Of a DNA stretch of 64,000 nt, positions 2,717-38,521 are shown piece by piece. The notes below the pieces were generated by a model. That model ran no database searches, was not told the DNA's origin, and saw only the letters and a list, made by a program, of their open reading frames with translations. The stretch covers positions 1 through 64,000 of the forward strand of contig NZ_LXYU01000003.1 of the NCBI RefSeq assembly GCF_001952075.1, read 5' to 3'. Numbering within the stretch: position 1 is the first letter of the stretch; every line of letters begins with the position of its first letter. The stretch is from Ditibartonella apis (GTDB taxonomy: Bacteria > Pseudomonadota > Alphaproteobacteria > Rhizobiales > Rhizobiaceae). The translations under genes were made by a program, and so were the position numbers.

Positions 2717-2772
2717 TGGGCAGGTAGGGTTCCTGTCCATCGCAGTTTTAAAATCGCAGGTGGAGATAAAAA

Positions 2773-6007: not shown

Positions 6008-6017
6008 AAGTTCCAAA

Positions 6018-8414: not shown

Positions 8415-8416
8415 CA

Positions 8417-12800: not shown

Positions 12801-13425
12801 AAACAAAAATAGTGATAATGAACCCACAGATAACATCAAGAATGATACGGAAAATTTGTCCCAAGACAAACAAGGTGCGGGTGTTGAAAAACCGGAGGCC
12901 AGTCTCTTGCTTATCAATGATAAAAAAGGCAAACAAGTGAAATTGCAATCGACTGTTACATGGTCGCTAAAGCCACCGCATTCACCTGAAAACCCTTTGG
13001 ATGAAACAGCCTTGGTTGCCAATTTTAAAACCGATGATGGTAAACTCGGTGCGCGCATGAGCATCCGCAAAAATTATCGCGACAATCTCGGTGCAACTCA
13101 TTTGATCGACCTTTCGTTTTCGCAAGCAGACGGCTTCGATAGTGGAGTCGTTGTTGATGTTAAGGGAGTTTATTACGGCGACAAAATCAATGTCTTGAAC
13201 AAGCAGGCTTCGACAATTGTCGCAGACCTTTATGAAAATAATTTTGTGGCTTCATTGCGTGATGATAAAGACAACAAAGAAAACAACAGAAATTTTCTAA
13301 CTCGCTCAGCTGTTATCGGTTTCCAGACCGTTTTTACCGATGGGAAAACTGCTTTGTTTATGTTGAACAAAGGCGCAGCTGAAAATCAACTCTTTGATAA
13401 GTTTAATGATCCGACAACGCATTAA
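9853..13425 (+). CDS. Large single-pass membrane protein with disordered charged region, function unknown
   Basis: A 1190-residue protein. The first ~120 residues form a helical N-terminal domain (NIAELLKKSIEKQK; a Rhizobiales-type start). About 700 residues of charged, Asn/Asp/Glu/Lys/Ser-rich, probably disordered sequence follow. A single membrane helix lies at about residues 837-856 (VAAGAFFVFVLAFGAYFLS), then a second disordered linker. The last ~170 residues form a compact domain with VTWSLKPP, HLIDLSFSQADGF and GFQTVFTDGKTALFMLNKG. I recall related proteins with this N-terminal helix, central membrane span and C-terminal domain in other Rhizobiales, all of unknown role. The topology suggests a cytoplasmic N-terminus and a periplasmic C-terminal domain. 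It lies between two type I systems but has its own terminators, so a role in secretion is not shown. The disordered part appears greatly expanded. Confidence 0.85.
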   Translation: MVNIAELLKKSIEKQKMKPTSEVRQHIYEKARSAIKSKLSEMDAPELVRRSYMLQLEAAICEVEAFYVLEPEFFELREDNATCHFAYNAYLPDYFGTRRDVVVDPMKLRPLSGEPAQLMKIEKIDEDKQALQPDREHQVFTLHSGKEKSSQVLPDEAYPVDLNIADQQRNDNQNSELTGFNGERGDKFEPSGSDLDDGHIEPLIEGLEEEFNELSKNIADETLEKEREDQNGKGEEKIFQPRPVVEDKKSANDDSHFVKSDAQPEHVIEAEPHSINLREKADDSSQSQPRDNLDLNDRTASETRLENRRAEEVAQEPIGRIDPMVGQSAFSNTLKNETRVENDYAKKPEPAFTEMPENRLETKSVNAGQSETSSLKQDSFAATSINAQHIEDIGEVGAGGKDIDGKDIDRKNMDAKSGTPKEATSVFGFSKSRRGFPRRSAVDDYPLYIDTPSYPASAGGFFGKDAFGTIGGQTASMERQPFGTFNRETANNKADSGNNHQIPGFKTETVVMASTTPISKDADKAEIFSRKANGQAGTNELQTPEIATKANPVNMSAYNADKGVVNRVMSAETSAAKISAPISQGIVHDNSSNQTDVEKLNSKQDKTADSFLKVGRNPAQNDRSVSPTKNCSDDDNRLGGLSKRFSNDANGKSIEQNNADTKPQAQLNRLSEKAFLVESPVPVKNNSGEERAKPDGGPSFPRGQASTYGKTEVISEKRTIISNNDGTTSIDEESKVLAFSGHEIPGKDRKVEEEIPAGVSGEKEEKESTLDIAEKFDQKRTEFFDRLDNARNDRLEQDLFPTVSSFDQKDRGKTVNRSLSRGQRSSNFAKILTGRSVAAGAFFVFVLAFGAYFLSRSGPSIPLTEQHPQNITMRDQDVRNNPDPAQTAAINDKGSNDNAEKLLRENYIASKNQKNDQNNFGKKITEEKADEPLKSGEKDEVKPTESDDIKSSNDASSVIDKKQPEKLASIPISVTRPVVEEMPNKNSDNEPTDNIKNDTENLSQDKQGAGVEKPEASLLLINDKKGKQVKLQSTVTWSLKPPHSPENPLDETALVANFKTDDGKLGARMSIRKNYRDNLGATHLIDLSFSQADGFDSGVVVDVKGVYYGDKINVLNKQASTIVADLYENNFVASLRDDKDNKENNRNFLTRSAVIGFQTVFTDGKTALFMLNKGAAENQLFDKFNDPTTH

Positions 13426-14441: not shown

Positions 14442-15959
14442 ATGAGATCTACACGTTCTGTGCTCTATTTGTCATTGCTGTTAACAGTGCTGTCGCTGTT
14501 TGCCTTGTTCTACACCCTGGTTTTTCATGGCGATTTTGTAGCGCACAATATTGTTTTCAACTCGATTATTGCCTGTTTTGATGTAATCGTTTTGCTCTAT
14601 GCTCTCTACGCGAACTTTTTTGTCGGACGCGGCATTACACAATGGGAACAGTTCAAGCGTCATTTTCCGCGCGACGAAGAACCGAAGCTTAAAGGTGGCA
14701 TGCGGTTGCTTCGCGGTCGTCTTCACGATCTTATCAGTTTTAACGAAGATGAAAGAAACTCGGCAGTTGCGCTGGTGGCAAAGGCACTCGATTGGCGTGT
14801 CGACTTTCTGTTTTATGCAGCTGGTGCGGTTATCTCTATGGGCTTGCTCGGCACCTTCTTCGGTTTGACGTTTACCATGGAAGGTATTCGCGGTTCGATT
14901 GACGTTCTTTCCTCTGCCGATGAAATCCAGGCGAAATCCCTTATCAATTCGTTGGCCGCCCCTCTTGGTGGTATGGCGACGGCGTTCTCATCTTCCATGT
15001 TCGGTTTGGGCTCGTCCATTTGTACCGGTCTCGTTGCGCACTTTATGGGGCGTGCGACAGAAGGCTGGGTCTATGACATTGAAAAATGGTCTTTCGTTGC
15101 AAGTGGTGAAGAAGCATCGAAAGTGGCGGGCGAGACCGGCACGATCGACGCAACGACACGCGCGATTAACCGTCTGGCAGCAGTTTTATCCCGCCATGTC
15201 GAGTTTTCGCATGAAGACACCGGCAAATTTCTGGATATCTCTGGCAATTTTGTTCAAGGACAGGCGATACAACAGGAAACGATGGATAAAATGTTGACTG
15301 TTATTTCCGAACAATCAGAAAATAATAAACAGTCGATTGAAACTATCCTGAACACAGTTACGGCCAATGGAGAGGCAACGAGGCAAATTGTCGAGATTCT
15401 TCAGAATAGTTCGGTTGTATTGGCAGGGCTTGGTGATATTGTAAAATCGAATAGCGCTTATATCGCTCGCAGCATCGAAGCACAGGAAAGCAACAGCCAG
15501 ACAATCGGTCAGGCTATTGCCGGTTTGAACCAGATGCGCATAGAATTTATGGGTAGTCTTGATACAATTTCGAACAAGCTTAAAGGAATTCAGGACAATA
15601 CCGGTGCTCTTGAAGCAATCTCGGATGAACTTAAAGGGGTTCATGCCAATACCAGTGCGTTAGAGGCAATTTCCAATGACCTCAAGGGAGTTCAGGCGAA
15701 TACCGGTGCGTTAGAGGCGATTTCCGGTAATCTTAAAGAACTTCAGGCAAGTGCCGGTTCCATTCAACAATCAACCAATCAATTGCTGGGCTACAGTGTC
15801 AATCAGGCGGAAGCATTACAAAACGCAAATCAGGTTATGCAGGTTCAGCAAAAAGCAATTATGGAAGGGATGCGGGATTTGACCGAAGCCCGCGTTTCGA
15901 TTGTGTCAGCAATACGTGCTGTCCAAAAGGTTAGCGACGTTCCACCCACGAAAGGCTAA
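14442..15959 (+). CDS. MotA/TolQ/ExbB-like proton-channel protein of a type I secretion system (SiiB-like)
   Basis: A 505-residue inner-membrane protein. Two N-terminal membrane helices (about residues 5-27 and 33-57) are followed by a cytoplasmic segment and a second pair of helices (~122-147 and 165-195). These contain GLLGTFFGLTFTMEGI and the small-residue run PLGGMATAFSSSMFGLG, typical of the MotA/TolQ/ExbB channel core. The last ~290 residues are a predicted coiled-coil tail containing three 17-residue repeats. It is the first gene of a tight operon with TolC, MotB-like, HlyD, giant substrate and ABC genes. Such a MotAB-like pair in a type I cluster is known from Salmonella SPI-4 (SiiB with SiiA), where it conducts protons and supports SiiE function. 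Long tails also occur in ZorA, but no Zorya partner genes are present. Confidence 0.85.
   Translation: MRSTRSVLYLSLLLTVLSLFALFYTLVFHGDFVAHNIVFNSIIACFDVIVLLYALYANFFVGRGITQWEQFKRHFPRDEEPKLKGGMRLLRGRLHDLISFNEDERNSAVALVAKALDWRVDFLFYAAGAVISMGLLGTFFGLTFTMEGIRGSIDVLSSADEIQAKSLINSLAAPLGGMATAFSSSMFGLGSSICTGLVAHFMGRATEGWVYDIEKWSFVASGEEASKVAGETGTIDATTRAINRLAAVLSRHVEFSHEDTGKFLDISGNFVQGQAIQQETMDKMLTVISEQSENNKQSIETILNTVTANGEATRQIVEILQNSSVVLAGLGDIVKSNSAYIARSIEAQESNSQTIGQAIAGLNQMRIEFMGSLDTISNKLKGIQDNTGALEAISDELKGVHANTSALEAISNDLKGVQANTGALEAISGNLKELQASAGSIQQSTNQLLGYSVNQAEALQNANQVMQVQQKAIMEGMRDLTEARVSIVSAIRAVQKVSDVPPTKG
15597..15749 (+). repeat. Three in-frame 51-bp repeats in the MotA-like tail
   Basis: Units start at 15597, 15648 and 15699, each beginning AATACC(G/A)GTGC. 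Each encodes a 17-residue unit of the type NTGALEAISxxLKGVQA, which extends the coiled-coil tail. The identical 51-bp period suggests recent unit duplication and possible copy-number variation. Confidence 0.85.
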
Positions 15960-15962
15960 TTC

Positions 15963-17435
15963 ATGATGAATTGCTCAGAAAATATCAAACGTGTGGTGTC
16001 GATCCTATTGGTGAGCTGCAGTATTGTTTCGACAGGATGTGCGTCGAATAGAAACCCTGCTGCTCGTGCAGATGTTGATACAATGACAACTCAGGCTGTT
16101 AACGAAAATCATCAGCCTGCGATCAGCAAGGATCCCAGAGTTGCGAATACTAACAATCCGGCAACGGCAAGAGCCAAGGAAGCTCTAAAGCGCGAAAAAC
16201 AGAGATTGACGCTTGACGAAGCGTTGAAGAAAGCTGCCGATTATTCGTGGACGATTAAAGTTGCAAAGAGCCAGCTTGATATTGCCGAGAGTCGTCTTGA
16301 TCAGGCAAAAGCCAAATATTATCCCACGGTCGGTGCGGAAATAACGGCTCCGAACCTTCGCTATGACGGTGGTATCACAAGCCGTGACCGTGATTTCGAC
16401 GATACCGCTTTTGCCGGCCTCGATGTTCGTTATAGTATTTATGATTTCGGCCGACGGGATGCCGACAAGGAAGCAGCAAGTTACAACTTGCGGGCCAGTG
16501 GACATGCCAAACATGCTCAGGATTTGACTGTTCTGTTCGATACGGCCAACGCCTATATGGCGGTTCAGGCTTATACCGAGCAGTTACAATCGGCTATCGG
16601 CTATGTCGACAAAATTACCGCTTTGAACAAAACCATCGGTGAAAGTGTGACCGGTGGTATTTCACCGCAGTCGGATGCCGTTCGCGGGCGTCTGGCCTTG
16701 AGCAATGCGATCAACCGGCGCAAGGATATCGAACTCAAATTATCACGTGCCCATCAGAAATTGAATGCTCTGGTCGGTATAGACGTTGAAGTTTTGCCTG
16801 CCAAACGTATGGCATTACCGCATATCGGAGACCTTGATAGCGTTGCAGTCAATGCAGCCGATCAGAACCCGGCGGTTCTTGCCAGAGGTGCAGCTCTTGA
16901 AGGTAGCCGTAAGAGCGTGGTTGGTGCAAAAGCAAGTCTGAAGCCGCGGCTTGATCTTACGATTGACTATAAGCGTACTTTGGAAAACGTTGATAATCTT
17001 TACAATGTGTCTGATACAGATGGCGGTGTCCAGCTCAAATTGACGTTCGACATTTTTGATCTTTCCAAGAAGGCGAAGATTCGCGAAGCTTATGCGCAGG
17101 TCAATGTCAATGAAGCACAATTGGGTAAAGAGCGTTCAACGGTGAATGATGAAGTCCGTGCGCTTCTCGGTGATATCGATATCACATCTCAGCAGTGGAC
17201 AATCAGTGAAGAGGCAAGCAAGGAAGCGGATAAGACCCGTGGCCTTTATCTGGAAGAATTCCGTTTGGGCGACCGTAAATTGTCTGATCTTATTACTGCG
17301 GAAACCGAGTATTTTACCTCGCGCACAGATGCGATTGATGCCCGTTATGGTTTTATGCGTGCAGTGTTCAGTATTTATTACCTGGCTGGGAAGCCTCGTG
17401 AAGGACTTCAGGCTCTTCAGCTGGTGGAGCGTTAA
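15963..17435 (+). CDS. TolC-family outer-membrane lipoprotein of type I exporter 2 (SiiC-like)
   Basis: A 490-residue TolC-family protein with a lipoprotein signal (VVSILLVSCSIVSTG then Cys). The mature part has a short linker and the two TolC repeats: LTLDEALKKAADYSWTIKVA, VRYSIYDFGRRDADKEAA, and a second half with PAVLARGAALEGSRKSV and LYLEEFRLGDRKLSDLITAE. It starts 3 bp after the MotA-like gene and ends 2 bp before the MotB-like gene, so the three are surely co-transcribed. It corresponds by position and family to SiiC. It is clearly diverged from the TolC protein of the first operon, so the two type I systems each have their own outer-membrane duct. Confidence 0.9.
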   Translation: MMNCSENIKRVVSILLVSCSIVSTGCASNRNPAARADVDTMTTQAVNENHQPAISKDPRVANTNNPATARAKEALKREKQRLTLDEALKKAADYSWTIKVAKSQLDIAESRLDQAKAKYYPTVGAEITAPNLRYDGGITSRDRDFDDTAFAGLDVRYSIYDFGRRDADKEAASYNLRASGHAKHAQDLTVLFDTANAYMAVQAYTEQLQSAIGYVDKITALNKTIGESVTGGISPQSDAVRGRLALSNAINRRKDIELKLSRAHQKLNALVGIDVEVLPAKRMALPHIGDLDSVAVNAADQNPAVLARGAALEGSRKSVVGAKASLKPRLDLTIDYKRTLENVDNLYNVSDTDGGVQLKLTFDIFDLSKKAKIREAYAQVNVNEAQLGKERSTVNDEVRALLGDIDITSQQWTISEEASKEADKTRGLYLEEFRLGDRKLSDLITAETEYFTSRTDAIDARYGFMRAVFSIYYLAGKPREGLQALQLVER

Positions 17436-17437
17436 TA

Positions 17438-18109
17438 ATGGCAGAAAAACGTGGTGGTGAAAATATCTGGATTGCTTACGCAGATATGCTGACCGTTCTT
17501 CTGATGGTTTTTCTTTTGCTGGCTATGTTGTTTCAGGTTATTGTTGCAACATCGAAAATTGCCGGCCCGGAAGATCAGGCAGGAAACCAGAACGCCGAAA
17601 GTGAACAGCAGTCGAAGAAGGCGCCGACAGTTATCGACGATAAGTCGAAATTTTCGATGGCCAATGAAAACAAGCCGAATAAGAATGGCGGTATTGACGA
17701 TACAACGGGTAGCAGTGAACAGGTTGCTGCCAATCTACCACTTGTCATGGTTGATACAGGGGCTTTGAAACCGCGCGATGGTGACTTGCGTCTCAATGTC
17801 GAACTGAATAGAACCTATTTGACATCTATCCAGCAAAATGAAGTCCGTGCCTGGGCCTTGAGAAACAAGGCTGCGCTTACAACAGAAAAATTGAGGATTT
17901 ATTCGGTCGGGCGGAGTGTGAATGTTTCAACCGGTGACACCTTGCTGATGCAGGTCAACCGCGCTGTTGCGACAATGGCGGTTCTGCAGAAAGAAGGCGC
18001 CATTATTAAAAACATCAGATTTGATAATCTGATTGTGCCGGATAATACCGAAGACTATATCATACTACGTACTGAAGATAGCAATGCAAATAACAGTAAA
18101 ACGCAGTAA
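17438..18109 (+). CDS. MotB/SiiA-like stator protein with proton-channel Asp and OmpA-like end
   Basis: A 223-residue protein with one membrane helix directly at the N-terminus: WIAYADMLTVLLMVFLLLAM, residues 11-30. Asp16 in YADM aligns with the proton-carrying Asp of MotB (and the essential Asp of SiiA). A disordered linker follows, then a short C-terminal domain (about residues 115-210) that resembles the OmpA/MotB peptidoglycan-binding fold, with NRAVATMAVLQKEGA where OmpA-like domains have an Arg-containing helix. It should pair with the MotA-like protein two genes upstream; the TolC gene lies between them. Start ATG 17438 has a GGAG-type site about 8 nt upstream. Together these would be an ion-driven energiser tied to peptidoglycan. 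The substrate ion is inferred. Confidence 0.85.
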   Translation: MAEKRGGENIWIAYADMLTVLLMVFLLLAMLFQVIVATSKIAGPEDQAGNQNAESEQQSKKAPTVIDDKSKFSMANENKPNKNGGIDDTTGSSEQVAANLPLVMVDTGALKPRDGDLRLNVELNRTYLTSIQQNEVRAWALRNKAALTTEKLRIYSVGRSVNVSTGDTLLMQVNRAVATMAVLQKEGAIIKNIRFDNLIVPDNTEDYIILRTEDSNANNSKTQ

Positions 18110-19373
18110 GTGGGGAAAAATCATCGACGGGCTTAAGGCTATTTCGTTGGGAAAATGGCTGCTTGCCCTTTGTGTGCTTGCTGCGTTTTTATGGGCTGCT
18201 TTCTGGCCTTTCGATGTTTTGGTTCGCGGACACGGAATTATCCGTGTCGAAGGCCACAATATTGAAATACAACATCCGGAAGGCGGAGTGTTGAAGCAAC
18301 TGCTCGTAACCAATGGTGAAACTGTCAAAGCCGGGCAGGTTCTTGCCAATGTTGAAAACCTGACAGTTGCCGAAGATAATGAAAGCAATTTTATTGCCCT
18401 TCGTGCCTATGAATTGCGCGAACAACGGTTGCGTGCGGAACTTACCGGCAACGATTTCAATCCGCCGAAGCCCAATAACCCGAAACTTGCCGAAATTTAT
18501 CAAAACGAAACGGATTTATATAATGCGCGCCGGCGTGCGTTGGATGAATCGGTTGCAATTGCCAAAACCCAGTACGAGCAAAAAGAAGCCCAACTCGCGT
18601 CGAATGCAATAGCAATTGAAAATCTCGGCGCCGAAATGCAGCTTTCGAACGAGCACATCAAGCTGCTCGAACCGTTGGTGGCAAGGGGCGCAGCACCGGA
18701 AGCAACACTTGTCCAGCGGCGTCTTGAATATCAAAAGGTTTTAAGCACACTTGCCGATGCTCGTTCAAAGGTTCCCGGAATGACAGCAGCGCGTGATGAG
18801 GCCAAGCTTAAAATTTCGATGTATAAAACCGAATTCAACGAGGATGCCAATAAACAGCTTGCCGAGGTTCAGGTAAAGCTCGAAACTGCCAAAGCGCAGT
18901 GGGAAGCAAGCCGCCAGCGGGCAAAGAATTCGGAAATTGTCTCGCCGGTGGATGGCGTTATCCAACAGGTTGTCATGCCCCACGTCGGGGCGGTGCTTAG
19001 AGCCGGTGAAAAAATGTTCGAAATTGCGCCAAGCGAGGTGCCACTGGTTGCGGATGTGAAGGTTAACCCGCAAGACCGCGACCGTTTGTGGGTGGGGCAG
19101 GATGTGCGCGTTCGTGTACTGGCGATATCCAACTACAATAGTCCGACACTGAAAGGTAAAGTTTCTGTGATCAGTGCCGACGCTGTCGGGGAAGAGGATA
19201 AAGGGGGGCGCTATTATGAAGTTACCGTCACAATGGATGCAGACCAACACAAGAAATTGAAAATATTTCCCGGAATGACTGTGGAGACTTTTGCATTGGC
19301 GGGGCAGAGGACATTTCTTCAATATTTGTTCAAACCGTTCCTCGATGGAATGTCGGTGGTCTTCAGCGAATGA
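18084..19373 (+). CDS. HlyD-family membrane fusion protein of type I exporter 2 (SiiD-like)
   Basis: Periplasmic adaptor of about 429 residues. ATG 18084 is preferred because GAAGA lies 6 nt upstream and it puts the membrane helix (WLLALCVLAAFLWAAFWPF) near the N-terminus; a 17-residue longer form from 18033 would overlap more of the MotB-like gene. Features are a lipoyl half IEIQHPEGGVLKQLLV, a long helical hairpin (about residues 90-275), the second half IVSPVDGVIQQVVMPHVGAV, a beta-barrel domain, and the family end motif PGMTVETFALAGQRTFLQYL. It overlaps the MotB-like gene by 26 bp, which suggests translational coupling. Confidence 0.92.
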   Translation: MQITVKRSKWGKIIDGLKAISLGKWLLALCVLAAFLWAAFWPFDVLVRGHGIIRVEGHNIEIQHPEGGVLKQLLVTNGETVKAGQVLANVENLTVAEDNESNFIALRAYELREQRLRAELTGNDFNPPKPNNPKLAEIYQNETDLYNARRRALDESVAIAKTQYEQKEAQLASNAIAIENLGAEMQLSNEHIKLLEPLVARGAAPEATLVQRRLEYQKVLSTLADARSKVPGMTAARDEAKLKISMYKTEFNEDANKQLAEVQVKLETAKAQWEASRQRAKNSEIVSPVDGVIQQVVMPHVGAVLRAGEKMFEIAPSEVPLVADVKVNPQDRDRLWVGQDVRVRVLAISNYNSPTLKGKVSVISADAVGEEDKGGRYYEVTVTMDADQHKKLKIFPGMTVETFALAGQRTFLQYLFKPFLDGMSVVFSE

Positions 19374-19393
19374 GACGGGGCACTGTGTCGCAA

Positions 19394-19422
19394 TTGAGCT
19401 TGTTAAAGAAGCAGGCTATAAC
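19394..19422 (+). promoter_or_regulatory. Candidate sigma70-type promoter for the giant substrate gene
   Basis: TTGAGC (19394-19399) and TATAAC (19417-19422) are separated by 17 bp. They lie in the 115-bp gap before the giant gene and would allow separate expression of the substrate from the exporter genes. No start site is known. Confidence 0.4.
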
Positions 19423-19488
19423 TATATTTTAGTCGGGTGGAGTTTATACTGATTTCGGGGCTTTGGAGTCTATAGGGGTTATATCGAG

Positions 19489-22400
19489 ATGAAACTACCT
19501 TTTCCACAGAAGGACGGAGTATCTGTTCTTGTTGATACGTATTCGGATAACGATGTACCGCTAGCGATTTCCCAGGTTGAAATCATTATTCGCGGAAGTG
19601 ATGTTGTCATTCGTATGCAGGATGGCTCTGAACTGACGCTGGTTCAGGCTGCGCAAATGTCGTCCATGCACGAAAATTTGTTCAACCTGAGGTTTATGGA
19701 TGGCACAGTTGTTTCATCGAACGAATTGTTCCAGCGTGCCGATCTCATCGAACCGGGTCCGGAATTAAGTGAAATTCGCGAAAAGAACGCAAAGGTCGAT
19801 GCCAGTGCTGATCCGCTCGTTGCTGTTGTCCAGAATGCTCCGGTAAGCGAAACAACCGATCTTAATGCCGATGAAGATGTTGTCGGTGGACAAAGTGGCG
19901 GAAGAGGCGATGATCGTCTTTCAGTTGCCGACTTTTTAGGCACACCGCCTTCGATACTTGATGACACAGTAAGCTTTGTTCCGTCGACCTCGGCCGGCGG
20001 CGGGGCTCCGTTGTCCAATCAGTCTCCTTCGGAACCGATGCCCAATCCTATGTTGCCGCCAACTCCCTCGGAACCGTCCACGCCATCTGAACCGTCCACG
20101 CCGGTAAATCCTGATAATGGTGGTGGTAGCCATAACCATAACGAAGGGAATGGCGGAAATAATAACGATAACAATAATGATCACAATGGTGGTAATAACG
20201 ATAACAATAATGATCACAACGGTGGTAATAACGATAACAACAATGATCATACCGGTGGTGATGGCGATAACACCGGTAATGCGGGATTGGCTTTTGTCGA
20301 CAAGGCCAATCTTTATCAGGTAAACAGCACCAGAACGACTGTCCAGAATGAGGATGGAACACAATCGACCGTCTGGCATCTGGGTGGCGGTTCGCCTGCT
20401 GCACGTACGAATCCTGATCTTGGTGTCCAATATGGCGAACCTGCTATTCTTGATTTGCGCCATGAGGCCGGTCAGGAAAACGGATTTGTTGTCCATGCCG
20501 ATAATGGTGCTTTCAAATATGGTCAGGTCAATACAGAAAACAATCCGAACAATCTGGATCGTCGTTTGGGACGTATTGTGTCTTTCGACCAGCTGGTCGG
20601 CGGGGAATCTGTTGCCGGCAAGCATATCAAGGATGTCAGCCAAATTCCGGATGGTATGACCATTATCTGGAAGGGAAGCCCTGATTACGCGGATTTTGTT
20701 GCCAAATACGGTATCGAACTTAAAGATAACGAAATATTCGTCAGCTATAAGGGCAATGTCGATTATAACGGCAATAACGTCAACATCACCTGGGTTGATG
20801 ACCAGGGTAAGGAAACCAGAGCAAAGTCCGAATTTACCAACCAGTATGTGGGTGATCATCCGGATACTGTTATCAATGGAAATCACGCGATTGTTTTGCC
20901 GCAAACGCCGAATGCCCGCGAAATCTATGGTGGCAGCGGAAACGACACGATTTATGCTTCACAGTTCAATAACCATATCAAATATGATGGCGAGGGTGGC
21001 ACAAACCGCCTGATCTATGGCGATGATTATCCTGTTACCGCACAGCAGGGATCAAATGTATTGCCTGGTCTGACATTCGATATTGCCAATAACAAAGTTA
21101 CCGATAACGGCAATAATGATGTTGCCGAAATGCACAATTTTACCGAGATTGTCGGCACCAAAGGTGATGACAAGTTTTTGATCGGTGATGTAGCGACCTC
21201 TTATTATTTTGACGGGCGCGATGGCAATAACATCTTCAATATGCAGATGACCGATCCGAACACCGGTGTCACTACAGGCTCGAGCGGTAATAACCGGTTA
21301 TATGCCGGTGCAGGAGAAGACATCTATAATCTCGATAATTCTTCGGGCAATAACACTATTGTCGATAGTGGTAAAGGAGACTCGAACGATAGCTATAATT
21401 TTGAATCCTCGACAGGCGTGAATAAGATTGCAGATTCAGGCGGGAGTGATTTCTACCACTTCAACAAGGCTATCAATCGCGTAGAGATCATTGATTCCGC
21501 AGCCGGTAATGATCATTATCAGTTTCATAATATCAAAGACAATCATGTTACGATCAATGATCTTAATGATGGTGACAGTTTAAGCGGAAGCGATGTCTAT
21601 GATTTTGCTACTTTGGCTTCAGTTGATAGCACAGCAACAGATCATGTCGAGAATTCCATTGTTACTATTCTTGATGAAAATGGCAGCGATAAATATCAAT
21701 TTGACCGCACAAAAGGCGGTTCTGTTACGATTGATGACGAAGGCGTGATCAGCGCAAAAGATCAAGCTCAGGATGAGTACCATTTTTCAGGCGCTGACAC
21801 AAAAATCGATATTACCGATAAGGATGGTGCTGATAAATATTCCTTTGATCATGCAAAGACGAGTGCGGATAACACAATCAAGATCAAGGATTATGGTACC
21901 GCCAATGATATTTATAATTTCAATGATGTAACATCGGCTAGCATGGCAGAAGGCGATGCCGCGAATATTTCGATCACGGATGATGGCGGCAAGGACGAAT
22001 ATCACTTTGACAGGGTTCAAAGTAAAGTCCACATTGATGACATTGGCTCGGGCGACAACTATTATACTTTCCACGACGCCAAGAAATCCGATGTTACCAT
22101 TAACAATAAAAACGATGGCATTTATCTCGGTGGCAACGACATTTATGACTTTGCAACGCTAAAGGATAATAATGAATCCGCCACTGATCATATTGAAGAT
22201 ACGACCGTTGCTATCGCCGATGAAAACGGCAATGATACCTACAATTTCGATCGTACGACCGGCGGTTCTGTAACCATCAAGGATACCGGTGCTGGAAGTT
22301 CAAGCGACAGAACACTGGCGGCTGACGAGTATCATTTTTCCAAAGTCGCGACGAAAGTCGATATTACCGATCAGGATGGTGCTGATAAATATGATTTCAG

Positions 22401-25400
22401 CGATTCTACAACATCAGCTGATAATACAATTAAAATTACCGATAACAGCGATAGCAATTATACGGACGATTATAATTTCAACGGAACCAAAGCAACAGAG
22501 CTTGTCTCGGGAGCGGATGCCAATGTTGTTATTTATGACGCGGGTGGCTTAGACAACTATCATTTCAATAACATCACCAGTAAGGTGAAGATTGACGATC
22601 ATGGAGCGGGTAACGACAATTATACGTTCCATGAGGCAACCGACTCGGATATTACCATTCACGATTACTTCGATAATCGTAACACAGCACAATATCTCAA
22701 CAATACTTATGATTTTGCTACCCATGATGCAACGGGTAACCCGACCGATCATATCACCAATACAACTGTCAATATCACCGACGAAAGCGGTCAAGACCAG
22801 TATTATTTTGAACGCACGCAAGGTGGCGCGGTCACAATTGTGGATTCTGCATTCAACAATAATTATTCCAATGATAGGGATAGTTACTTCTTCAATGACT
22901 CCCATACAAAGGTTTCAATAACCGATGGTGGTGGTTATGATAACTATTACTTCAACCGTATATTGGTTGATCAGACTAACACTGTTACTATCAACGATCA
23001 GGGTGGCAGTAATTCGGGAAATGACAACTATTACTTCAATGATGTGAAAGCGACAGCTGCCGCTGCTTCCGGTGCGGCTCATATTACTATTTCTGATCAG
23101 TGGGGTTCGGACAACTATAATTTTAACAATTTTGGCGATGCCAACAGTTCGGTTGTCTCGACAGTAAAAATCGAAGACAGAGGCAACTATCAAGATACGT
23201 ACCTGTTCCACAATGCGGTGAACGCGAAAGTCGATATTCATGAATATCAAGGGACTTCCGTAGACGATACTTACGATTTTGCTACCAATAATGATACGGC
23301 TACCGACCATATTTCGAATGTCACTGTCAATATTCAGGATGAGGATGGACGGGACAATTATTTGTTCAACCGGACAGACAGTTCAACAATCACGATTATC
23401 GACAATTCTACTTGGAATGATAATTATTATTTCAACAATATCAATAATTCTACAGTCACAATTAGTGACGGTGGCAGCACTTCAAATTATAATAACACCC
23501 CTGATAATTTCAACTTCAATAACGCCAAGGGCGGTAGTGTGACGATAACGGAAGGTAGCGGAGCCACTAGATATTACTTCCAAAAGGTAAAAACAAAAGT
23601 CGATATTACCGATCAGACGGGTGATGACAGCTATTCTTTTCAGAATTCGCTAACGAGCGATTCGAATACAATTACAATACGTGACAACTCTGGTTTTAAT
23701 AGTTATTATTTTAGTGGAACGGATTCGACCAATTTTGCTAGTGGGGACAACTACAATATTAGTATAACGAATGCTGGAGCAGGGCGGAACTCTTATGATT
23801 TTACTTCTGCCCACTCGAAAGTCTATATTTATGACGCGGGGCGTTATGACGATTCATATAACTTTACCAAAGTTCACGATTCTATTGTGACAATTGTTGA
23901 CACCAGTTTTGATAATGGTTCCGGCGATAAATATAACTTTGGTGATGGAACATTTGAAAACCGTATAACAAACACTGTGGTCAATATCACCGATAACGGC
24001 GAGGCCGACACCTATTCGTTCCAATATTCGGATGCCGGTCAGGCAGATGGTCAACGGGGCGCAGTGACCATTGTCGATAACGGGACCGTTACTAGTTATT
24101 CTGTTGATGACAAGTACCTATTTTCCAATAGTCATTTGAAAACTGTTGATATTACCGAAGCGAGAGGTTCCGATACTTATAACTTTACGAATTCGACAAT
24201 CGACAAAGTAACCATTAACGATAATGGCGATAATACTACAAGTAATGGAGTAGCAGGAACTGATAGTTATGATTTTACCGGTTCGGCAAACAAAGAAACG
24301 ATCATCAAGGATACAACAGGCCAAAGCAAATACACGTTTACGAATGCCGGATTTGTTAATAAGGACGGTGAAAATGTGACGGCATCGTCGACTGTCAAGA
24401 TTATTGATGGCGACAGCACGGATGTCTATACATTTGACCACAGCAAAGGCGTGGTCAATATTATTGACGGTGGCAACAACCTCAAGACGACGCAAAGGCG
24501 TATCCAGTATGATGATAACGGCCACATCAAATACACCCAAACAGAAACCGACGACGGTTCCGTCAATGTTCCTACGACAACAGACAGTTTTAGTGCTCAA
24601 GCAGCCGATGAATTCAATTTCAGATATTCTTCGGCAAAGGTGAATATACAGGATGGTATTTTTGCTGGCGATGATTCGGGATTAGGCACTGATGATGGTA
24701 ATTCCGATGGCAACTATTATTTCCAATATTCGACCGGCGATGCAACAATCACCAATAAAGGTGGCATGGATAAATATTACCTCGGTGGTTCTACCGGTAA
24801 ATTTATTGTCAATGGCGGAACCGGTACGGATATTCTTTATGTTGGTAAGGGGTATCTTGTATATGATGGTGGCACACGAACCGATGGCGGCAAGGAAAAC
24901 GACTGGATTTCGTTTCAGGATGTTCTGGAAAGCATAGATGCCAACGGTAATCCGGTCACTAATAAAGTAGATCCGAATGCGCGCACTGACGGCGTTTATA
25001 TCAATCTTGGTGCAAGTGAAAAAGGTTACGCTGACTATAGCTCTGTTATCAGTCATGACAGTAATGGTGCAGTACTTGCTGATGGCGCCGATAAAGGTCA
25101 TGTAACCAATGTTGAGAATGTTATTGGCAGTAAATTGAAGGATCTGATTTACGGCAATGACAAAGACAATTATTTTCTGGCAACCCAGGGTAATGATGAA
25201 TATTACGGCGGCGGTGGTTCGGATACATATTATGTCGGTGCTCCCGACATTGGGGGACGTATTGATGGGTTGTTCCTGAAACCGGATGGCACGCCTGACG
25301 ATGCAGCAGCTGATTATGCACAAATGGCGGCATGGGCAGATCCGTCAAATCTTATTGTTACCAGAGATAAAGTTATTATTGATCTTGACCACGGATATGC

Positions 25401-26598
25401 AAAAACTTTGTGGAAAGATGAAAATAATGTCCAGTCTCAGGATACATTGCATGATTTTGAAAATGCCTACGGTGCTTTATTCTATAGAAACGACATCACC
25501 GGCAGATGGGGGACAGACGGCAGGTTTGTGGGCGGTTATAAAGGGGATACTTTTTATTCTGTTCAAAATTCGAGCAAGGACGGCATTAGTTATTTTGATG
25601 GTAATGATACTCGTACCGTACGAGGGCCGAAGGGCGGAACTTTACTGACAAGCGATATCTTGCGTTATGACTATGTAAACGATCATGGTGAGTATATCCA
25701 TGGTGTCTACGTAAAAATGGATACAGATGCGTCCTATTCGGGAACAACAGTAAAGGGCTTCACTGGTTTTGATGCACAGAATGTTGCCCAAGGTACCCAA
25801 GGCAAGGATATCTTCAAAAGTATCGGAACCATTTTTGGTACAAAAGGTGACGATACATTCGAGGGAAGTAATGCTGGTGGCCATTCTTTTGACGGTGTTT
25901 CTGGTAATGACAGGTTTATCAGTCATGGCGGGGTGGCGAGCCAATATGCCAACGGTGCTATCCTTGACTATAGCAAGCTTACCAAAAGAGAGTTTCTGGA
26001 TATCTTAATGAGCGATGACCAACATGGTCTGATTACTCGTGGCGGCGGAAACGAAGCGGATAAAATAAGTAATGTTAATTCCATTATCGGTACGCCCGGT
26101 GATGATCTCATCCATTTCACAACCAATAAACAACTTTCTGAATCGGCTTTTATTGGTTTTGACGGTGGTGGCGGTGTCAACTATATGACAAAAAGGCAGG
26201 ATACTATCGGTAGCATTCATGACCAGATTTATAACATTGGCGGCGGCTTTAAAAATGTTCAAGGTTTCAGCTTTATTGATTCATATAAAGATACATTGAA
26301 TGTCGACCTTGACGCTTTCTTCAAGGATTTCAAAACAGGCACTGCCGATAGTGATGGTCATTATCATGCGAAGTTCTTCTTGAATGGAGATCCCAATAGC
26401 GGTGACCCAAATGCCGACATCTTTAACGGGGTTGATAAAGACGGCGGTTGGAGCTGGCATAAGACCGCAGATGACGGTCATGGTAACGAAACCTGGAGTG
26501 CATTTGAAAATGATGTCAATACGGGCGATACAATCGAAGTTACAAGAGGAAGACAGGGCGATAATCACCTGCAGGATTCTCACCCTTCAATTCCGTAA
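19489..26598 (+). CDS. Giant secreted repeat protein (2369 aa), likely type I substrate and adhesin (SiiE position)
   Basis: The N-terminal ~110 residues form a compact domain (VEIIIRGSDVVIRMQDGSEL) with no cleavable signal peptide. A Pro/Ser stretch and an Asn/Asp/His/Gly linker (residues ~200-265) follow, then a globular region. From about residue 480 to 1780 there are dozens of units of about 20-30 residues built on D-x-Y-x-F ... V-x-I-x-D-x-G, for example KVDITDQDGADKYDF and SDNYNFNNF. These look like a beta-solenoid with Asp ladders that could bind calcium. They differ from the canonical RTX GGxGxDxUx. Near the C-terminus are a few RTX-like spots (GSKLKDLIYGNDKDN, GTKGDDTFEGSN, GTPGDDLIHF). 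It is encoded between the HlyD and ABC genes, as siiE is, but has none of the Ig-like repeats of SiiE. Adhesion is inferred from size and context. Confidence 0.88.
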   Translation: MKLPFPQKDGVSVLVDTYSDNDVPLAISQVEIIIRGSDVVIRMQDGSELTLVQAAQMSSMHENLFNLRFMDGTVVSSNELFQRADLIEPGPELSEIREKNAKVDASADPLVAVVQNAPVSETTDLNADEDVVGGQSGGRGDDRLSVADFLGTPPSILDDTVSFVPSTSAGGGAPLSNQSPSEPMPNPMLPPTPSEPSTPSEPSTPVNPDNGGGSHNHNEGNGGNNNDNNNDHNGGNNDNNNDHNGGNNDNNNDHTGGDGDNTGNAGLAFVDKANLYQVNSTRTTVQNEDGTQSTVWHLGGGSPAARTNPDLGVQYGEPAILDLRHEAGQENGFVVHADNGAFKYGQVNTENNPNNLDRRLGRIVSFDQLVGGESVAGKHIKDVSQIPDGMTIIWKGSPDYADFVAKYGIELKDNEIFVSYKGNVDYNGNNVNITWVDDQGKETRAKSEFTNQYVGDHPDTVINGNHAIVLPQTPNAREIYGGSGNDTIYASQFNNHIKYDGEGGTNRLIYGDDYPVTAQQGSNVLPGLTFDIANNKVTDNGNNDVAEMHNFTEIVGTKGDDKFLIGDVATSYYFDGRDGNNIFNMQMTDPNTGVTTGSSGNNRLYAGAGEDIYNLDNSSGNNTIVDSGKGDSNDSYNFESSTGVNKIADSGGSDFYHFNKAINRVEIIDSAAGNDHYQFHNIKDNHVTINDLNDGDSLSGSDVYDFATLASVDSTATDHVENSIVTILDENGSDKYQFDRTKGGSVTIDDEGVISAKDQAQDEYHFSGADTKIDITDKDGADKYSFDHAKTSADNTIKIKDYGTANDIYNFNDVTSASMAEGDAANISITDDGGKDEYHFDRVQSKVHIDDIGSGDNYYTFHDAKKSDVTINNKNDGIYLGGNDIYDFATLKDNNESATDHIEDTTVAIADENGNDTYNFDRTTGGSVTIKDTGAGSSSDRTLAADEYHFSKVATKVDITDQDGADKYDFSDSTTSADNTIKITDNSDSNYTDDYNFNGTKATELVSGADANVVIYDAGGLDNYHFNNITSKVKIDDHGAGNDNYTFHEATDSDITIHDYFDNRNTAQYLNNTYDFATHDATGNPTDHITNTTVNITDESGQDQYYFERTQGGAVTIVDSAFNNNYSNDRDSYFFNDSHTKVSITDGGGYDNYYFNRILVDQTNTVTINDQGGSNSGNDNYYFNDVKATAAAASGAAHITISDQWGSDNYNFNNFGDANSSVVSTVKIEDRGNYQDTYLFHNAVNAKVDIHEYQGTSVDDTYDFATNNDTATDHISNVTVNIQDEDGRDNYLFNRTDSSTITIIDNSTWNDNYYFNNINNSTVTISDGGSTSNYNNTPDNFNFNNAKGGSVTITEGSGATRYYFQKVKTKVDITDQTGDDSYSFQNSLTSDSNTITIRDNSGFNSYYFSGTDSTNFASGDNYNISITNAGAGRNSYDFTSAHSKVYIYDAGRYDDSYNFTKVHDSIVTIVDTSFDNGSGDKYNFGDGTFENRITNTVVNITDNGEADTYSFQYSDAGQADGQRGAVTIVDNGTVTSYSVDDKYLFSNSHLKTVDITEARGSDTYNFTNSTIDKVTINDNGDNTTSNGVAGTDSYDFTGSANKETIIKDTTGQSKYTFTNAGFVNKDGENVTASSTVKIIDGDSTDVYTFDHSKGVVNIIDGGNNLKTTQRRIQYDDNGHIKYTQTETDDGSVNVPTTTDSFSAQAADEFNFRYSSAKVNIQDGIFAGDDSGLGTDDGNSDGNYYFQYSTGDATITNKGGMDKYYLGGSTGKFIVNGGTGTDILYVGKGYLVYDGGTRTDGGKENDWISFQDVLESIDANGNPVTNKVDPNARTDGVYINLGASEKGYADYSSVISHDSNGAVLADGADKGHVTNVENVIGSKLKDLIYGNDKDNYFLATQGNDEYYGGGGSDTYYVGAPDIGGRIDGLFLKPDGTPDDAAADYAQMAAWADPSNLIVTRDKVIIDLDHGYAKTLWKDENNVQSQDTLHDFENAYGALFYRNDITGRWGTDGRFVGGYKGDTFYSVQNSSKDGISYFDGNDTRTVRGPKGGTLLTSDILRYDYVNDHGEYIHGVYVKMDTDASYSGTTVKGFTGFDAQNVAQGTQGKDIFKSIGTIFGTKGDDTFEGSNAGGHSFDGVSGNDRFISHGGVASQYANGAILDYSKLTKREFLDILMSDDQHGLITRGGGNEADKISNVNSIIGTPGDDLIHFTTNKQLSESAFIGFDGGGGVNYMTKRQDTIGSIHDQIYNIGGGFKNVQGFSFIDSYKDTLNVDLDAFFKDFKTGTADSDGHYHAKFFLNGDPNSGDPNADIFNGVDKDGGWSWHKTADDGHGNETWSAFENDVNTGDTIEVTRGRQGDNHLQDSHPSIP
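20155..20253 (+). repeat. Three in-frame 33-bp repeats encoding an Asn/Asp/His linker
   Basis: Units start at 20155, 20188 and 20221, each encoding GGNNDNNNDHN or a close variant. The linker joins the N-terminal domain to the rest of the giant protein. Such repeats are prone to slippage, so linker length may vary between strains. Confidence 0.85.
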
Positions 26599-26661
26599 CT
26601 GCAACGTTGAATTCAAGGCAGAGTGCCTTTAAAACCTAATGCCCGTTTTGGAAAGAACCGA

Positions 26662-28944
26662 ATGACTCCTTTGATCGACGCTCTGGAAACCGCGTGTAAC
26701 AAAATACGCGGTTCTCTTCCTTTTCACTGGCAGCGTCTGCGTACTTTGCCGATGTCGGGCGACGAAACTTTGATCAAGCTCGTCGAGCGCCAGCTCGGCG
26801 TTCATATCATTCGTGTCAACAAACAATCGGCCTTGCAAATTGGCGGTGTCTATATTGTCATAACCCCTGCGGGTAATTACCGCGCGGTGGAAGTGGCAAA
26901 TGACGGGACATTCGTTTTTCTTGATGAAGACAAAGAGCAAAGCCGGAAAGCCGAAGCTGATGACATCCGCCCCGCTACTGTCGTGGCAACTGTCGAAAGC
27001 AAAATCGAACCTTCTCTTGAACTGGAGAAACATCCTTCCGGGGCTCACGTAACGCCGCAAGCCTTAAAAAAAGCTGTGCATCCGGCCGAGGTTGTGAAAC
27101 TTGATGCACTCGCAAAAACGGATGACAAGCGTGAGATCACGCAAGCCGGCAACACCGAAACCAGTGGCTCGAAAACTGCTCAAGGGACAGCTCGGGAAAA
27201 AGCGCAAAAATTTACCGATCAATGTATTCCGCAATATCAGGTTTTTAAAGCAAGCCTTCTCGATAATTTCGATTTGCGCCGTCTTATTTCTTCAGATCCG
27301 GTGGCGGTTTCTATCCTCTGGAAATTGCTTTTCGGCTCGATTTTTATCAATCTGATGATTGTGGTCACACCGCTTTATCTGAATGCAATTTATAGCCGTA
27401 TTTTGCCTGCTTATGCGTCAGCCTCGTTATGGGCCTTTTCAGTCGGTGTCGCATTGGCGCTGCTTGCCGAATATCTACTTCGTCGTGACCGACAGAAGCT
27501 CAATATTTCGCTCGTCCAGCGCATTCACACAACAATTGAACCCAATATTGTGAGGCGGCTTTTGCGCGTCAATGCCAGCCAGTCGAATGAATGGGGCGCT
27601 GCCCAGTTCCGCGCGCTGGATGATTGGAAAATGGTGCGTAATTTCGCGTTTCTGGCATTGAATCTCAATGTTGTGGATGTTCCCTTCATTCTGCTCTTTC
27701 TTTTGGTCATTGCCATACTCGGGCAATGGATTGTCGTTGTTCCGATATTCATCATCGGCGTTATTTTTTGCGTCATGTATTACTATTGGCGGCAGGCAGA
27801 GTTGCAGTTTAACGAAAGGCCACTTCATCGCGACCCTCCGACACCGGTCGATATGATGGTCGCCTCCATTATCGGGCGGCCGGATGTTGTCAGCGATCGC
27901 TATATGTCCGACTCCGAGACCGATATTGAAGCCTGGAAAAAGCGTTATCAACGCAGTGCCGCTTTCCAGCGTTTAAATTACGCTATCAATGGCGTTCAGC
28001 TCGTGCTCATTGTCATTATGGCCTATTATCTGGTTCTCGCCGGCTCGCTCAATCAGGGAGCGATTTTTGCGGTTATCCTGCTTGCCGGTCGTATGCTTAT
28101 GCCACTTTTCAGCACGTCAAGTATTGTCTATGAGGCTTATGGAGCGCACCGCTCCTACAAGCGGTTGAAAAAACTCATTACCGAAAGTTCCGACAATCAG
28201 GATCAACCGATCCATCTTGAAAAATACGAAAATCTCAAATCGCCATTATGGATGATTGAACACGGAACTTTTGCCTATAACAATGAAAAGGTTATTCTCG
28301 ATGATCTTGATCTTGTTATACCGAAGGGACAGAAAGTCGCACTGTTCGGGCGCAACGGGAGCGGCAAAAGCACTTTGTTAAAATTGCTGGCCGGATATCT
28401 TTCACTTGAAAAAGGCACGCTCTCGTTTTCAAAACGTCCGCTCCATGCCGGTGATGAATCGATCAAACATCTCATTCATTATGCCTGGCAAGAGCATGTG
28501 ATGTTGACAAGCTCGGTATATGAATTTCTTTGTCTGGAAGGCCGCTTGACGCGCGAAGAATGTGAAAACATTCTTCATCAGCTTGATCTGGTGAGTGGCG
28601 AAATGCAAATCGCCGACAAGCTGGAAGTGACATGGCGCGATGCCGGTTTTTATCCCAATCCTGCACATCGGCAGATGCTTGCCTCGGCACGCCTTGCGCT
28701 AACAAAACGCAAGATTTTGCTTCTCGACGAGCCGACCTCGCAACTGTCACAAAAACAGGAGTCACGCGTTGCCAATGTGCTTAAAAACATATTGCAGCCT
28801 GATACAACAATGGTCGTGTCGACAGACCGTTTTGATATTCTGAGTTTGACAGAACGCGTTATTGTTCTCGATCAGGGGCATATCCAGTTTGACGGGCCAA
28901 CACGCGAATTCCTGCGCCGTTCCAACCACCCGCAAAATAGCTAA
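26662..28944 (+). CDS. Type I secretion ABC transporter with degenerate ATPase motifs (SiiF-like)
   Basis: About 760 residues. An N-terminal C39-like region without a catalytic cysteine is followed by a linker, membrane segments (about residues 215-470) and an ATPase domain. Walker A GRNGSGKST (~563) and Walker B LLLDEP (~685) are intact, and the Q-loop AWQEHVML is present. The LSGGQ signature is replaced by YPNPAHRQ (~664), and the H-loop histidine is replaced by Asp in STDR (~718). The D-loop is SQLSQ instead of SxLD. The ABC protein of the first operon keeps all of these motifs. ATG 26662 is chosen for GGAAAG 6 nt upstream; GTG 26623 is an alternative. It should export the giant protein, yet a homodimer of this domain would lack standard catalytic contacts. 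Confidence 0.88.
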   Translation: MTPLIDALETACNKIRGSLPFHWQRLRTLPMSGDETLIKLVERQLGVHIIRVNKQSALQIGGVYIVITPAGNYRAVEVANDGTFVFLDEDKEQSRKAEADDIRPATVVATVESKIEPSLELEKHPSGAHVTPQALKKAVHPAEVVKLDALAKTDDKREITQAGNTETSGSKTAQGTAREKAQKFTDQCIPQYQVFKASLLDNFDLRRLISSDPVAVSILWKLLFGSIFINLMIVVTPLYLNAIYSRILPAYASASLWAFSVGVALALLAEYLLRRDRQKLNISLVQRIHTTIEPNIVRRLLRVNASQSNEWGAAQFRALDDWKMVRNFAFLALNLNVVDVPFILLFLLVIAILGQWIVVVPIFIIGVIFCVMYYYWRQAELQFNERPLHRDPPTPVDMMVASIIGRPDVVSDRYMSDSETDIEAWKKRYQRSAAFQRLNYAINGVQLVLIVIMAYYLVLAGSLNQGAIFAVILLAGRMLMPLFSTSSIVYEAYGAHRSYKRLKKLITESSDNQDQPIHLEKYENLKSPLWMIEHGTFAYNNEKVILDDLDLVIPKGQKVALFGRNGSGKSTLLKLLAGYLSLEKGTLSFSKRPLHAGDESIKHLIHYAWQEHVMLTSSVYEFLCLEGRLTREECENILHQLDLVSGEMQIADKLEVTWRDAGFYPNPAHRQMLASARLALTKRKILLLDEPTSQLSQKQESRVANVLKNILQPDTTMVVSTDRFDILSLTERVIVLDQGHIQFDGPTREFLRRSNHPQNS

Positions 28945-29459: not shown

Positions 29460-30410
29460 ATGAACTTGAATGAGGCCTTTAAAGTTGTCATCGAAAATTA
29501 CGAAAAAGCAAGGAGTGAGTTGTTTTCTAAAGCAAATCCTATGTATCAAACAATAATAAAAGAAATTCCAGGAAAAATCGTTGATTTGCTAGGAGCCAAA
29601 TGGAGCGGATTAAAGGTAAAAGGTGGGGTAGGAACCGGGAATTGGGCGCAAGTACCATGGTGTTGCTTGCTCAATTTTAGAGTTACAACAACACCAAAAA
29701 GAGGTATTTATGTAGTATACTTATTTAACAGTAAATATAATAAGATTTATCTAAGTCTGAATCAGGGGACGGATTCGTTAAACGAAGAATATGGTGAAAA
29801 GGAATATATCAATATTCTCAAACTTAGAGCTTCACTTTACAAAAGTAAGTTAAGTAAATATAAAAAACAGCTTCCTCTCGATAATATCGTTAATTTTAGA
29901 GGTAGAAAAGCCGACGGTTACTCAGCCGGTCATATCATTGGTATTGAATATGATGCCATGAATTTGCCTTCAGATGGTAAGTTGGTGGCCGATTTAAATG
30001 AGGTTTTAAACGCATATAGTTCATTGTCTGACTATGAAATTAAGCCACTTGATCAAGATGAAGCGGAATTGATAGCTTCAAAGTATAAAACGATTGAAGA
30101 GAGAAAAATATATTGTTTGCACAGGAGCATTGAACGCAATTCATCTGCAAAAAAAGTAAAAAAGATTCATGGACTAAGATGTGAATGCTGCGGTTTAAAT
30201 TTTGAAGAACGATATGGAGAGATTGGTAAGGGATTTATTGAAGTTCATCATTTAATACCTTTGTCATCATTAAAACTAGGAGAATGCAGAGAATACGATT
30301 CGCACAAAGATTTTGCGGTTCTTTGTTCTAATTGTCATAGGATGATCCATAGGCAGAGCGACCCCTCTGACATAGATGCGTTGAGGAAACGGCTTAAGGT
30401 TACTGTTTAA
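29460..30410 (+). CDS. McrB N-terminal-domain/HNH endonuclease, putative modification-dependent restriction enzyme
   Basis: A 316-residue protein with two parts. Residues ~15-200 match the MrcB_N (DUF3578) fold: GTGNWAQVPWCCLL, GIYVVYLFNSKYNKIYLSLN and a later HIIGIEYDAMNLPSDG. This domain is known from McrB-type proteins, where it reads modified bases. Residues ~235-305 are an HNH nuclease with zinc ligands CECC and CSNC and the core EVHHLIPL. The fusion is that of stand-alone type IV-like enzymes that cut modified DNA. It stands alone, with AT-rich codon use unlike the type I genes, which suggests horizontal transfer. It begins the defence region. The recognised modification cannot be read from the sequence. 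Confidence 0.82.
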   Translation: MNLNEAFKVVIENYEKARSELFSKANPMYQTIIKEIPGKIVDLLGAKWSGLKVKGGVGTGNWAQVPWCCLLNFRVTTTPKRGIYVVYLFNSKYNKIYLSLNQGTDSLNEEYGEKEYINILKLRASLYKSKLSKYKKQLPLDNIVNFRGRKADGYSAGHIIGIEYDAMNLPSDGKLVADLNEVLNAYSSLSDYEIKPLDQDEAELIASKYKTIEERKIYCLHRSIERNSSAKKVKKIHGLRCECCGLNFEERYGEIGKGFIEVHHLIPLSSLKLGECREYDSHKDFAVLCSNCHRMIHRQSDPSDIDALRKRLKVTV

Positions 30411-30792
30411 CAAGATTGTCGAAAGTCGCATTTATTTCCGTGAACATTCTGCATTCTGCGGCCGCCAATATTTTCCTCTCATATGATTTTTTGTTTCATT
30501 CGGTAATATTCCTGCCGGTTAGATGATACGCGTATTGTGGTTTTTAATTCGTATATCAGTTTTCAGAATTGAAATGCATAAATGGATGTCTCCTTCTCAC
30601 TCCATTCAATTTCAATTTGTTAAATTGGATACTATCTGCCGGTATGATATAAAGTGATGGTAGCTTGAAGTATTCGGAAAGCGTGGCGCCTGAAATAGCC
30701 TTCCGGTTCATTTATGCCGGTTTTCAACGATCAAAAGCTTTACAACATCAAAAATACGGGGTCTGATAAGGTTGCAATTTCTCGAAACAACA
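30411..30792. other. Intergenic stretch with an imperfect inverted repeat
   Basis: No gene is recognised. AATTGAAAT (30567-30575) pairs with ATTTCAATT (30609-30617), and inside it ATGGA pairs with TCCAT, which gives an imperfect ~51-bp inverted repeat. No nuclease or helicase remnant of the type ISP gene that follows can be read here. Confidence 0.4.
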
Positions 30793-35629: not shown

Positions 35630-35631
35630 CG

Positions 35632-38326: not shown

Positions 38327-38342
38327 TGGTGCCCAGAAGAGG
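38327..38342 (+). repeat. Left attachment site (attL core)
   Basis: TGGTGCCCAGAAGAGG is identical to the last 16 bases (reverse strand) of tRNA-Leu at the other end of the element. The flanking bases differ on both sides, so the identity stops at the core. Confidence 0.85.
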
Positions 38343-38517: not shown

Positions 38518-38521
38518 GGAC

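Follow-up and report, generated by a model that had tools for sequence, protein, structure and literature searches.

A putative SPI-4-related type I secretion operon with a MotAB-type pair in Ditibartonella apis, its Bartonella relatives and Enterobacteriaceae

What is a MotA/MotB-like protein pair doing among the genes of a type I exporter and its giant substrate? The question is raised by an operon at 14442-28944 on the + strand of a 64,000-nucleotide stretch of Ditibartonella apis (NZ_LXYU01000003.1, positions 1 to 64,000; hereafter the window), which is the start of contig C11 in a 2.6-Mb genome. Open reading frame (ORF) positions and family matches confirmed the initial annotation, which had placed six genes there in a tight operon, and the ORF list bore out their order, written here as B-C-A-D-E-F after the SiiABCDEF system of Salmonella pathogenicity island 4 (SPI-4). 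All six frames are uninterrupted. From these genes and their relatives, the locus is probably a SPI-4-related type I secretion system on a separate branch characterised by the order B-C-A-D-E-F. Its features are as follows.

14442-15959, +: gene B, MotA/SiiB-like inner-membrane protein, 505 amino acids (profile, hhalign, PADLOC)
14799-15089, +: conserved core of B, residues ~120-216 (alignments)
15963-17435, +: gene C, TolC-type outer-membrane channel, 490 amino acids (OEP match, 4e-35)
17438-18109, +: gene A, MotB/SiiA-like protein, 223 amino acids (profile, hhalign, fold)
17483-17485, +: Asp16 codon, membrane helix of A (residue aligned with SiiA Asp13)
17765-18079, +: predicted periplasmic OmpA/SiiA-like fold of A, residues ~110-214 (predicted structure)
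18084-19373, +: gene D, HlyD-type periplasmic adaptor (TIGR01843 match, 1e-91)
19489-26598, +: gene E, giant type I substrate, 2369 amino acids (rich in Asp/Gly/Asn, no cysteine)
19489-19758, +: N-terminal domain of E, ~90 residues, common to Enterobacteriaceae substrates and SiiE-type proteins
21376-24648, +: ~40 degenerate repeats YxF...[VI]xIxD, mostly of 20-32 residues, in E residues ~630-1720
26623-28944, +: gene F, type I secretion ATP-binding cassette (ABC) transporter, 773 amino acids (TIGR03375 match at 2.3e-83, yet under the cut-off of that model)

The gaps B/C, C/A, A/D, D/E and E/F measure 3, 2, -26, 115 and 24 bases, the ATG of D at 18084 lying within the 3' end of A. F likely starts at 26662, as most aligned relatives begin 39 bases further in. 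Family scans found the TolC, HlyD and ABC exporter genes of the SPI-4 set all present, and with the profile and fold matches described below the locus has the six functions of SPI-4 (SiiB, C, A, D, E, F), as had been proposed. The G+C content of the operon (45.8%, against 44.8% in the window) gave no signal of transfer.

Library matches to the pair were weak. A matched MotB_plug at 1.1e-4, under the Pfam cut-off in a protein scan and just at it in a genome search, while B matched MotA_ExbB at 0.024, under the cut-off in the protein scan. Stronger MotA_ExbB matches lie elsewhere in the genome (two on contig C6, one on C10), as does a stronger MotB_plug match (C10); the window pair is the one that sits in the exporter operon. 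The best PADLOC matches were ZorA for B (1.8e-11) and ZorB for A (9.7e-7). A profile of the MotA-like protein (alignment A2) matched 217 of 337 genomes of the class, own included, and the aligned matches represent a general family, mostly of ~380 amino acids, which is 26-33% identical to B and matches mostly over its core; the long C-terminal part of B gave only weak, coiled-coil-type matches. By hhalign, B of Bartonella matched SiiB at 97.1% (6e-11), rising to 98.8% (1e-16) with Enterobacteriaceae rows added, and SiiB matched the general MotA-like family at 97.8%. A of Bartonella matched the Enterobacteriaceae A set at 99.3% (2e-20), and the two sets together matched SiiA at 95.4% (2e-8), against 0.1-0.2% for five column-shuffled controls. 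The MotB fold that the initial annotation had expected was also returned by a structural model, in which A is predicted to consist of a membrane helix, a linker and a peptidoglycan-binding domain, with the SiiA crystal domain as the rank-2 structure match; only the helix and residues ~110-214 were used, because the mean predicted local distance difference test score (pLDDT) was 57.8. Thus the ZorA/ZorB matches, the broad alphaproteobacterial family, hhalign and the model of A made good the weak library labels, and the operon holds a SiiB-type MotA-like protein together with a SiiA-type MotB-like protein of one Asp-bearing helix, linker and peptidoglycan-binding domain.

Asp16, singled out in the initial annotation, is present in 14/14 MotB-like rows of alignment A8, where W11, A13, Y14 and D16 are invariant; SiiA retains the W and the D of this set. 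R175 of A aligned with SiiA Arg167, whereas a Leu stands at the place of Arg162. The SiiA of one Enterobacteriaceae region (L195), which matched the solved SiiA domain 6qvp at 6e-50, carries Asp13, Arg162 and Arg167.

The MotB-like gene was found in 10 of 71 genomes of the host genus, Bartonella, own included. Eight of nine fetched regions from relatives (L012-L019) keep the order B-C-A-D-E-F, F of L012 being cut by the region boundary and the substrate frame of L017 being interrupted; the ninth (L020), 5 kb long, is a contig fragment bearing D and parts of A and E. In L019 (11219-12217; genome G057) the MotB-like protein has 333 amino acids and a much longer periplasmic linker. The same operon occurs in the honey-bee gut symbiont Bartonella choladocola (BBC0122, NZ_CP015625.1). 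Identity to the window's proteins was 64-92% for A, 66-97% for B, 81-93% for F and 55-93% for E (5-6 relatives each; Bartonella alignments A1, A2 and A4 omit L016, L017 and L020, and A3 omits L012 as well). Ratios of nonsynonymous to synonymous substitution (dN/dS) lay at 0.09-0.18 (A) and 0.02-0.07 (B) across five relatives, and at 0.06-0.12 (F) and 0.15-0.23 (E) across four; these values are rough, as dS exceeded 1 in many pairs. The ratios for A and B therefore point to purifying selection on the pair. Since the order is kept in relatives at 55-97% identity (A, B, E, F) and with A/B ratios of 0.02-0.18, a chance neighbourhood of six genes appears unlikely. Chance adjacency was thus rejected on the conserved gene order, and in the Enterobacteriaceae, too, the pair is found alongside exporter genes.

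In that family (members assigned by a tolB 85-87% identical to that of E. coli in three of them), 16 of 324 genomes gave a MotA-like match and 14 regions were fetched, G1146 and G1287 being left out. Seven of the 14 have the order B-C-A-D-E-F, four of them with two substrates of ~1350 amino acids. Another four are of the SPI-4 type, A-B-C-D-E, with F sought and found in two (L200, L201); two (L199, L194) are incomplete or rearranged, and the last (L198) is not a type I locus. In L199 (G1230, a 2.2-Mb genome), genes of the MotA-like, TolC and HlyD types share the stretch with an N-terminal domain of substrate type, which is encoded on the other strand. The order also recurs on an Enterobacter asburiae plasmid (NZ_AP028423.1, L232), annotated as MotA/TolQ/ExbB, TolC, hypothetical, HlyD, calcium-binding protein and ABC; the 'hypothetical' is a MotB-like protein with the motif W-P-A-Y-V-D. 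This is an IncFII plasmid, with blaFRI-5 a few kb from the motor-linked operon. A Providencia rettgeri plasmid (NZ_CP077318.1, L233) carries an incomplete remnant of a pair made up of a MotA-like and a TolC-like gene.

Further searches marked out the limits of this distribution. The MotB-like profile A1 matched 2 of 347 genomes of the order, namely the own genome and one with a match to part of the helix and linker at 3.5e-6. Profile A8 matched 28 of 229 genomes of the gammaproteobacterial class, but among the loci tested with 1.5-kb flanks TolC or HlyD was found at G1106 only, the others mostly matching the membrane-helix end of the profile. There was no match to B in viral contigs, none in a plasmid search with the window's A and the B of L187, and none in E. 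coli genomes searched with plasmid-type and SPI-4-type DNA; an ABC profile at 1e-40 gave no match in 60 alphaproteobacterial genomes, an empty answer that is uninformative. As the linked pair was found among Alphaproteobacteria in Bartonella only (sampled order and class genomes), the initial claim of a strategy broader than one Salmonella island held for seven Enterobacteriaceae chromosomal loci and one plasmid but not for the other Alphaproteobacteria sampled, and 'broader' so far means the Enterobacteriaceae and part of one genus.

The substrates differ from each other except at their start. SiiE is reported to carry immunoglobulin (Ig) repeats (PMC6272769), whereas a Pfam scan of E found no Ig family at E<=0.1, in agreement with the initial annotation, and only one sub-threshold match to repeats-in-toxin (RTX); E has the YxF/VxIxD repeats instead. 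Both L187 substrates have classic RTX repeats (HemolysinCabind, 5e-42 and 4e-49), every substrate of L186-L189 contains 10-13 GGxGxD motifs, and the L190 and plasmid substrates gave no Pfam match. The N-terminal domain, however, is common to them: Bartonella matched Enterobacteriaceae at 99.5% (3e-23) by hhalign, and both together matched SiiE-type proteins at 93.8% (1.7e-7), against 68.3% for Bartonella alone and at most 0.4% for shuffled alignments. The SiiE N-terminal domain was thus found in the substrate by hhalign with intermediates and by hmmsearch. A profile built without SiiE matched the plasmid substrate (3e-28), L199 (1.2e-5), L193 (5.6e-5) and L197 (0.0044), and none of 17 other type I loci, nine of them short stretches that may end before a substrate gene. 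The main new lead is that motor and cargo start appear constant while the cargo body varies.

How does the locus compare with known systems? With SPI-4 it shares the six functions, a relationship of B and A seen in profiles and, for A, in the fold as well, the substrate N-terminal domain, the aligned membrane Asp and the Arg at the place of SiiA Arg167; it differs in gene order (siiA-B-C-D-E-F there) and in its substrate repeats. BapA/LapA-type adhesin systems likewise combine a TolC-ABC-HlyD exporter with a large surface-type protein. However, the closest ABC relatives of F (22 of 398 genomes in a phylum sample, own included) look like ordinary type I systems: eight of their 20-kb regions gave no tblastn match to B, and ten chosen genes from three such regions belonged to OEP, HlyD, OmpA, SapC, BapA_N, Ig, RTX and other families, none MotA-like. 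BapA_N is at best a doubtful relative of the E N-terminus (18% by hhalign). Among the open-licence literature matches listed, titles and abstract openings mentioned no such pair outside SPI-4.

In Salmonella, SiiAB is reported to be a proton channel, loss of siiA/siiB to reduce invasion and virulence, SiiF to bind SiiB, and an uncoupler to lower retention (PMC12607715, PMC6272769). Given this work on SiiAB and SiiE and the anatomy of the operon, control of the retention and release of E is the most likely role of the pair. F, D and C would form the export channel for E, and B and A a MotAB-type inner-membrane channel, to which B would supply the channel helices and a cytoplasmic tail, whereas A would bring Asp16 as the proton carrier and the attachment to peptidoglycan. 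The long cytoplasmic tail of ZorA serves as an analogy for that of B. The conserved N-terminal domain of E would exit last; E would most likely stall before this end has cleared the channel, which would keep E on the cell surface. Proton-driven motion of B and A may then act on the stalled complex, either through the N-terminal domain or through F/D, and decide whether E is held or released. Stoichiometry, proton flow, stalling, the target of the motor and surface display are what we infer, as are the terms 'proton-driven' and 'adhesin' of the initial annotation. Taken as a whole, a motor-coupled, SPI-4-related exporter that controls the retention and release of E is in our judgement probable.

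Several results weigh against this account. B matched the widespread general MotA-like family at 99.5% (4e-23), at least as closely as it matched SiiB, and A of Bartonella alone gave a non-significant 13.6% against SiiA, so that the link from A to SiiA depends on the intermediates; the comparison with SiiB/SiiA first proposed thus succeeded by profile for B directly, and for A with intermediates but not alone. The scan of Alphaproteobacteria for the six-gene neighbourhood succeeded in Bartonella relatives, but failed at 79 general MotA-like loci (the best 80 in the collection of named genomes, the other being B. choladocola), none of which, unlike B, had a TolC or HlyD match in flanks that reached 10 kb at most and less where the contig was small. 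When SiiE was left out, the N-terminal profile missed L195 and L196 at E<=1; with SiiE included it gave 0.13 on one of the 17 comparison loci (L078); eight of these loci are 20-kb regions and nine are ~4-kb stretches possibly short of the substrate gene. The ABC tree does not put SiiF with the Bartonella/B-C-A-D-E-F branch. Lastly, removal of the first sheet domain of SiiE is reported to cause over-retention, and removal of its coiled coil to lower retention (PMC6272769), so that the shared N-terminal domain, if it is the first sheet domain, would serve release, a point that the proposed mechanism has to accommodate. Our confidence was lowered because this deletion points to release, not holding, and because of the nine short comparison loci. 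Two other roles for the pair have nevertheless less in their favour. It could power export itself, adding proton-motive force to the moving of a very long protein, and the substrates of linked systems are indeed long (2042-2369 amino acids in Bartonella, 1351-1936 in L186-L192, 1905 on the plasmid); yet deletion of siiA and siiB is reported to have left SiiE secretion unaffected (PMC12607715), and the listed ORFs of a second type I system in the window (4358-9586) include no MotA/MotB-like pair, making this reading unlikely. The best PADLOC matches and the several defence genes in the right flank would fit a defence motor of the Zorya type, or a general pair of MotA/MotB-like proteins that happens to neighbour an exporter. 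But TolC stands between the two genes (B-C-A), an arrangement retained in Bartonella, seven Enterobacteriaceae regions and the plasmid, and a PADLOC scan of part of the window genes found the pair without Zorya effector genes, the other four operon genes being exporter and giant substrate; we regard this reading as very improbable.

A further question is whether SPI-4 and the B-C-A-D-E-F branch recruited a MotAB-type pair independently. Bartonella and the B-C-A-D-E-F set group together at 97/96 in the HlyD tree, 100/99 in the ABC tree and 100/99 in the MotA-core tree (the first two omit L194 and loci duplicating L074-L081; the last has 16 of the 79 general loci and 12 from A6). Convergence would account for SPI-4 standing apart in the MotA-core tree, where a general protein from Candidatus Paracaedibacter (L089) joins the B-C-A-D-E-F branch at 90/81, as well as for the position of SiiF and the different gene order; a joint clade with SPI-4 was neither supported nor rejected in that tree (approximately unbiased test, p 0.499). 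Conversely, in the HlyD tree every linked system, also that of SPI-4, is set apart from 15 others at 100/100, although all three trees bring long branches together and the 15 were picked by nearness of F; the N-terminal substrate domain is common to both, and SiiA ranks second among the structure matches of A. Convergence thus seems rather doubtful, and one common origin with SPI-4 seems likely, with the HlyD tree, but neither the ABC nor the MotA-core tree, in its favour. Because of the patchy presence (10/71 genomes within the genus, a single weak match to the helix among the 346 others of the order, and 11 full or SPI-4-type sets among 324 Enterobacteriaceae genomes with 14 regions read) and the plasmid copy, transfer of the module between Bartonella and Enterobacteriaceae groups, in either direction, is also likely.

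The rest of the window holds other systems of note. Upstream (6-9586) lies a second, ordinary type I system, with an FG-GAP/RTX protein at the contig edge, a tryptophan halogenase, TolC, ABC and HlyD, and no MotA/MotB match among its ORFs; its giant protein next to a halogenase resembles an arrangement that has been reported in Candidatus Tokpelaia hoelldoblerii and B. tamiae (PMC5156944). Between this system and the motor-linked operon (9853-13425), an ORF of 1190 amino acids gave no Pfam/NCBIfam match at E<=0.1, its first 224 residues being 58% identical to a B. choladocola stretch. Downstream are defence genes (29460-48902): MrcB_N-HNH, an IIG-type restriction-methylase, Hachiman HamA/HamB (33989-37815) and a type ISP restriction enzyme (43968-48902). 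Two large minus-strand ORFs (53038-57366, 1442 amino acids; 58487-61633, 1048 amino acids) gave no Pfam/PADLOC match at E<=0.001.

In 2017 SiiA and SiiB were termed 'unique accessory proteins' of the SPI-4 system (PMC5466336). The pairing of exporter and motor-like channel, until now known from a single Salmonella island, here appears in the order B-C-A-D-E-F in Bartonella, several enterobacteria and a plasmid. SiiA and SiiB thus belong to a broader set of systems, in which the cargo can be exchanged but one of its domains is constant, and this constant domain makes the control of SiiE by SiiAB directly testable, also outside Salmonella. More tentatively, and at somewhat less than even chances, motor-coupled type I secretion may be a mobile class, in which a cell-wall-anchored MotAB-type proton motor would work on an N-terminal domain of the exported protein that serves as its dedicated gate. 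The remainder of that protein, whether made of Ig, RTX-type or YxF repeats, would be exchangeable, and the module would have moved among Enterobacteriaceae, plasmids and the Bartonella clade.

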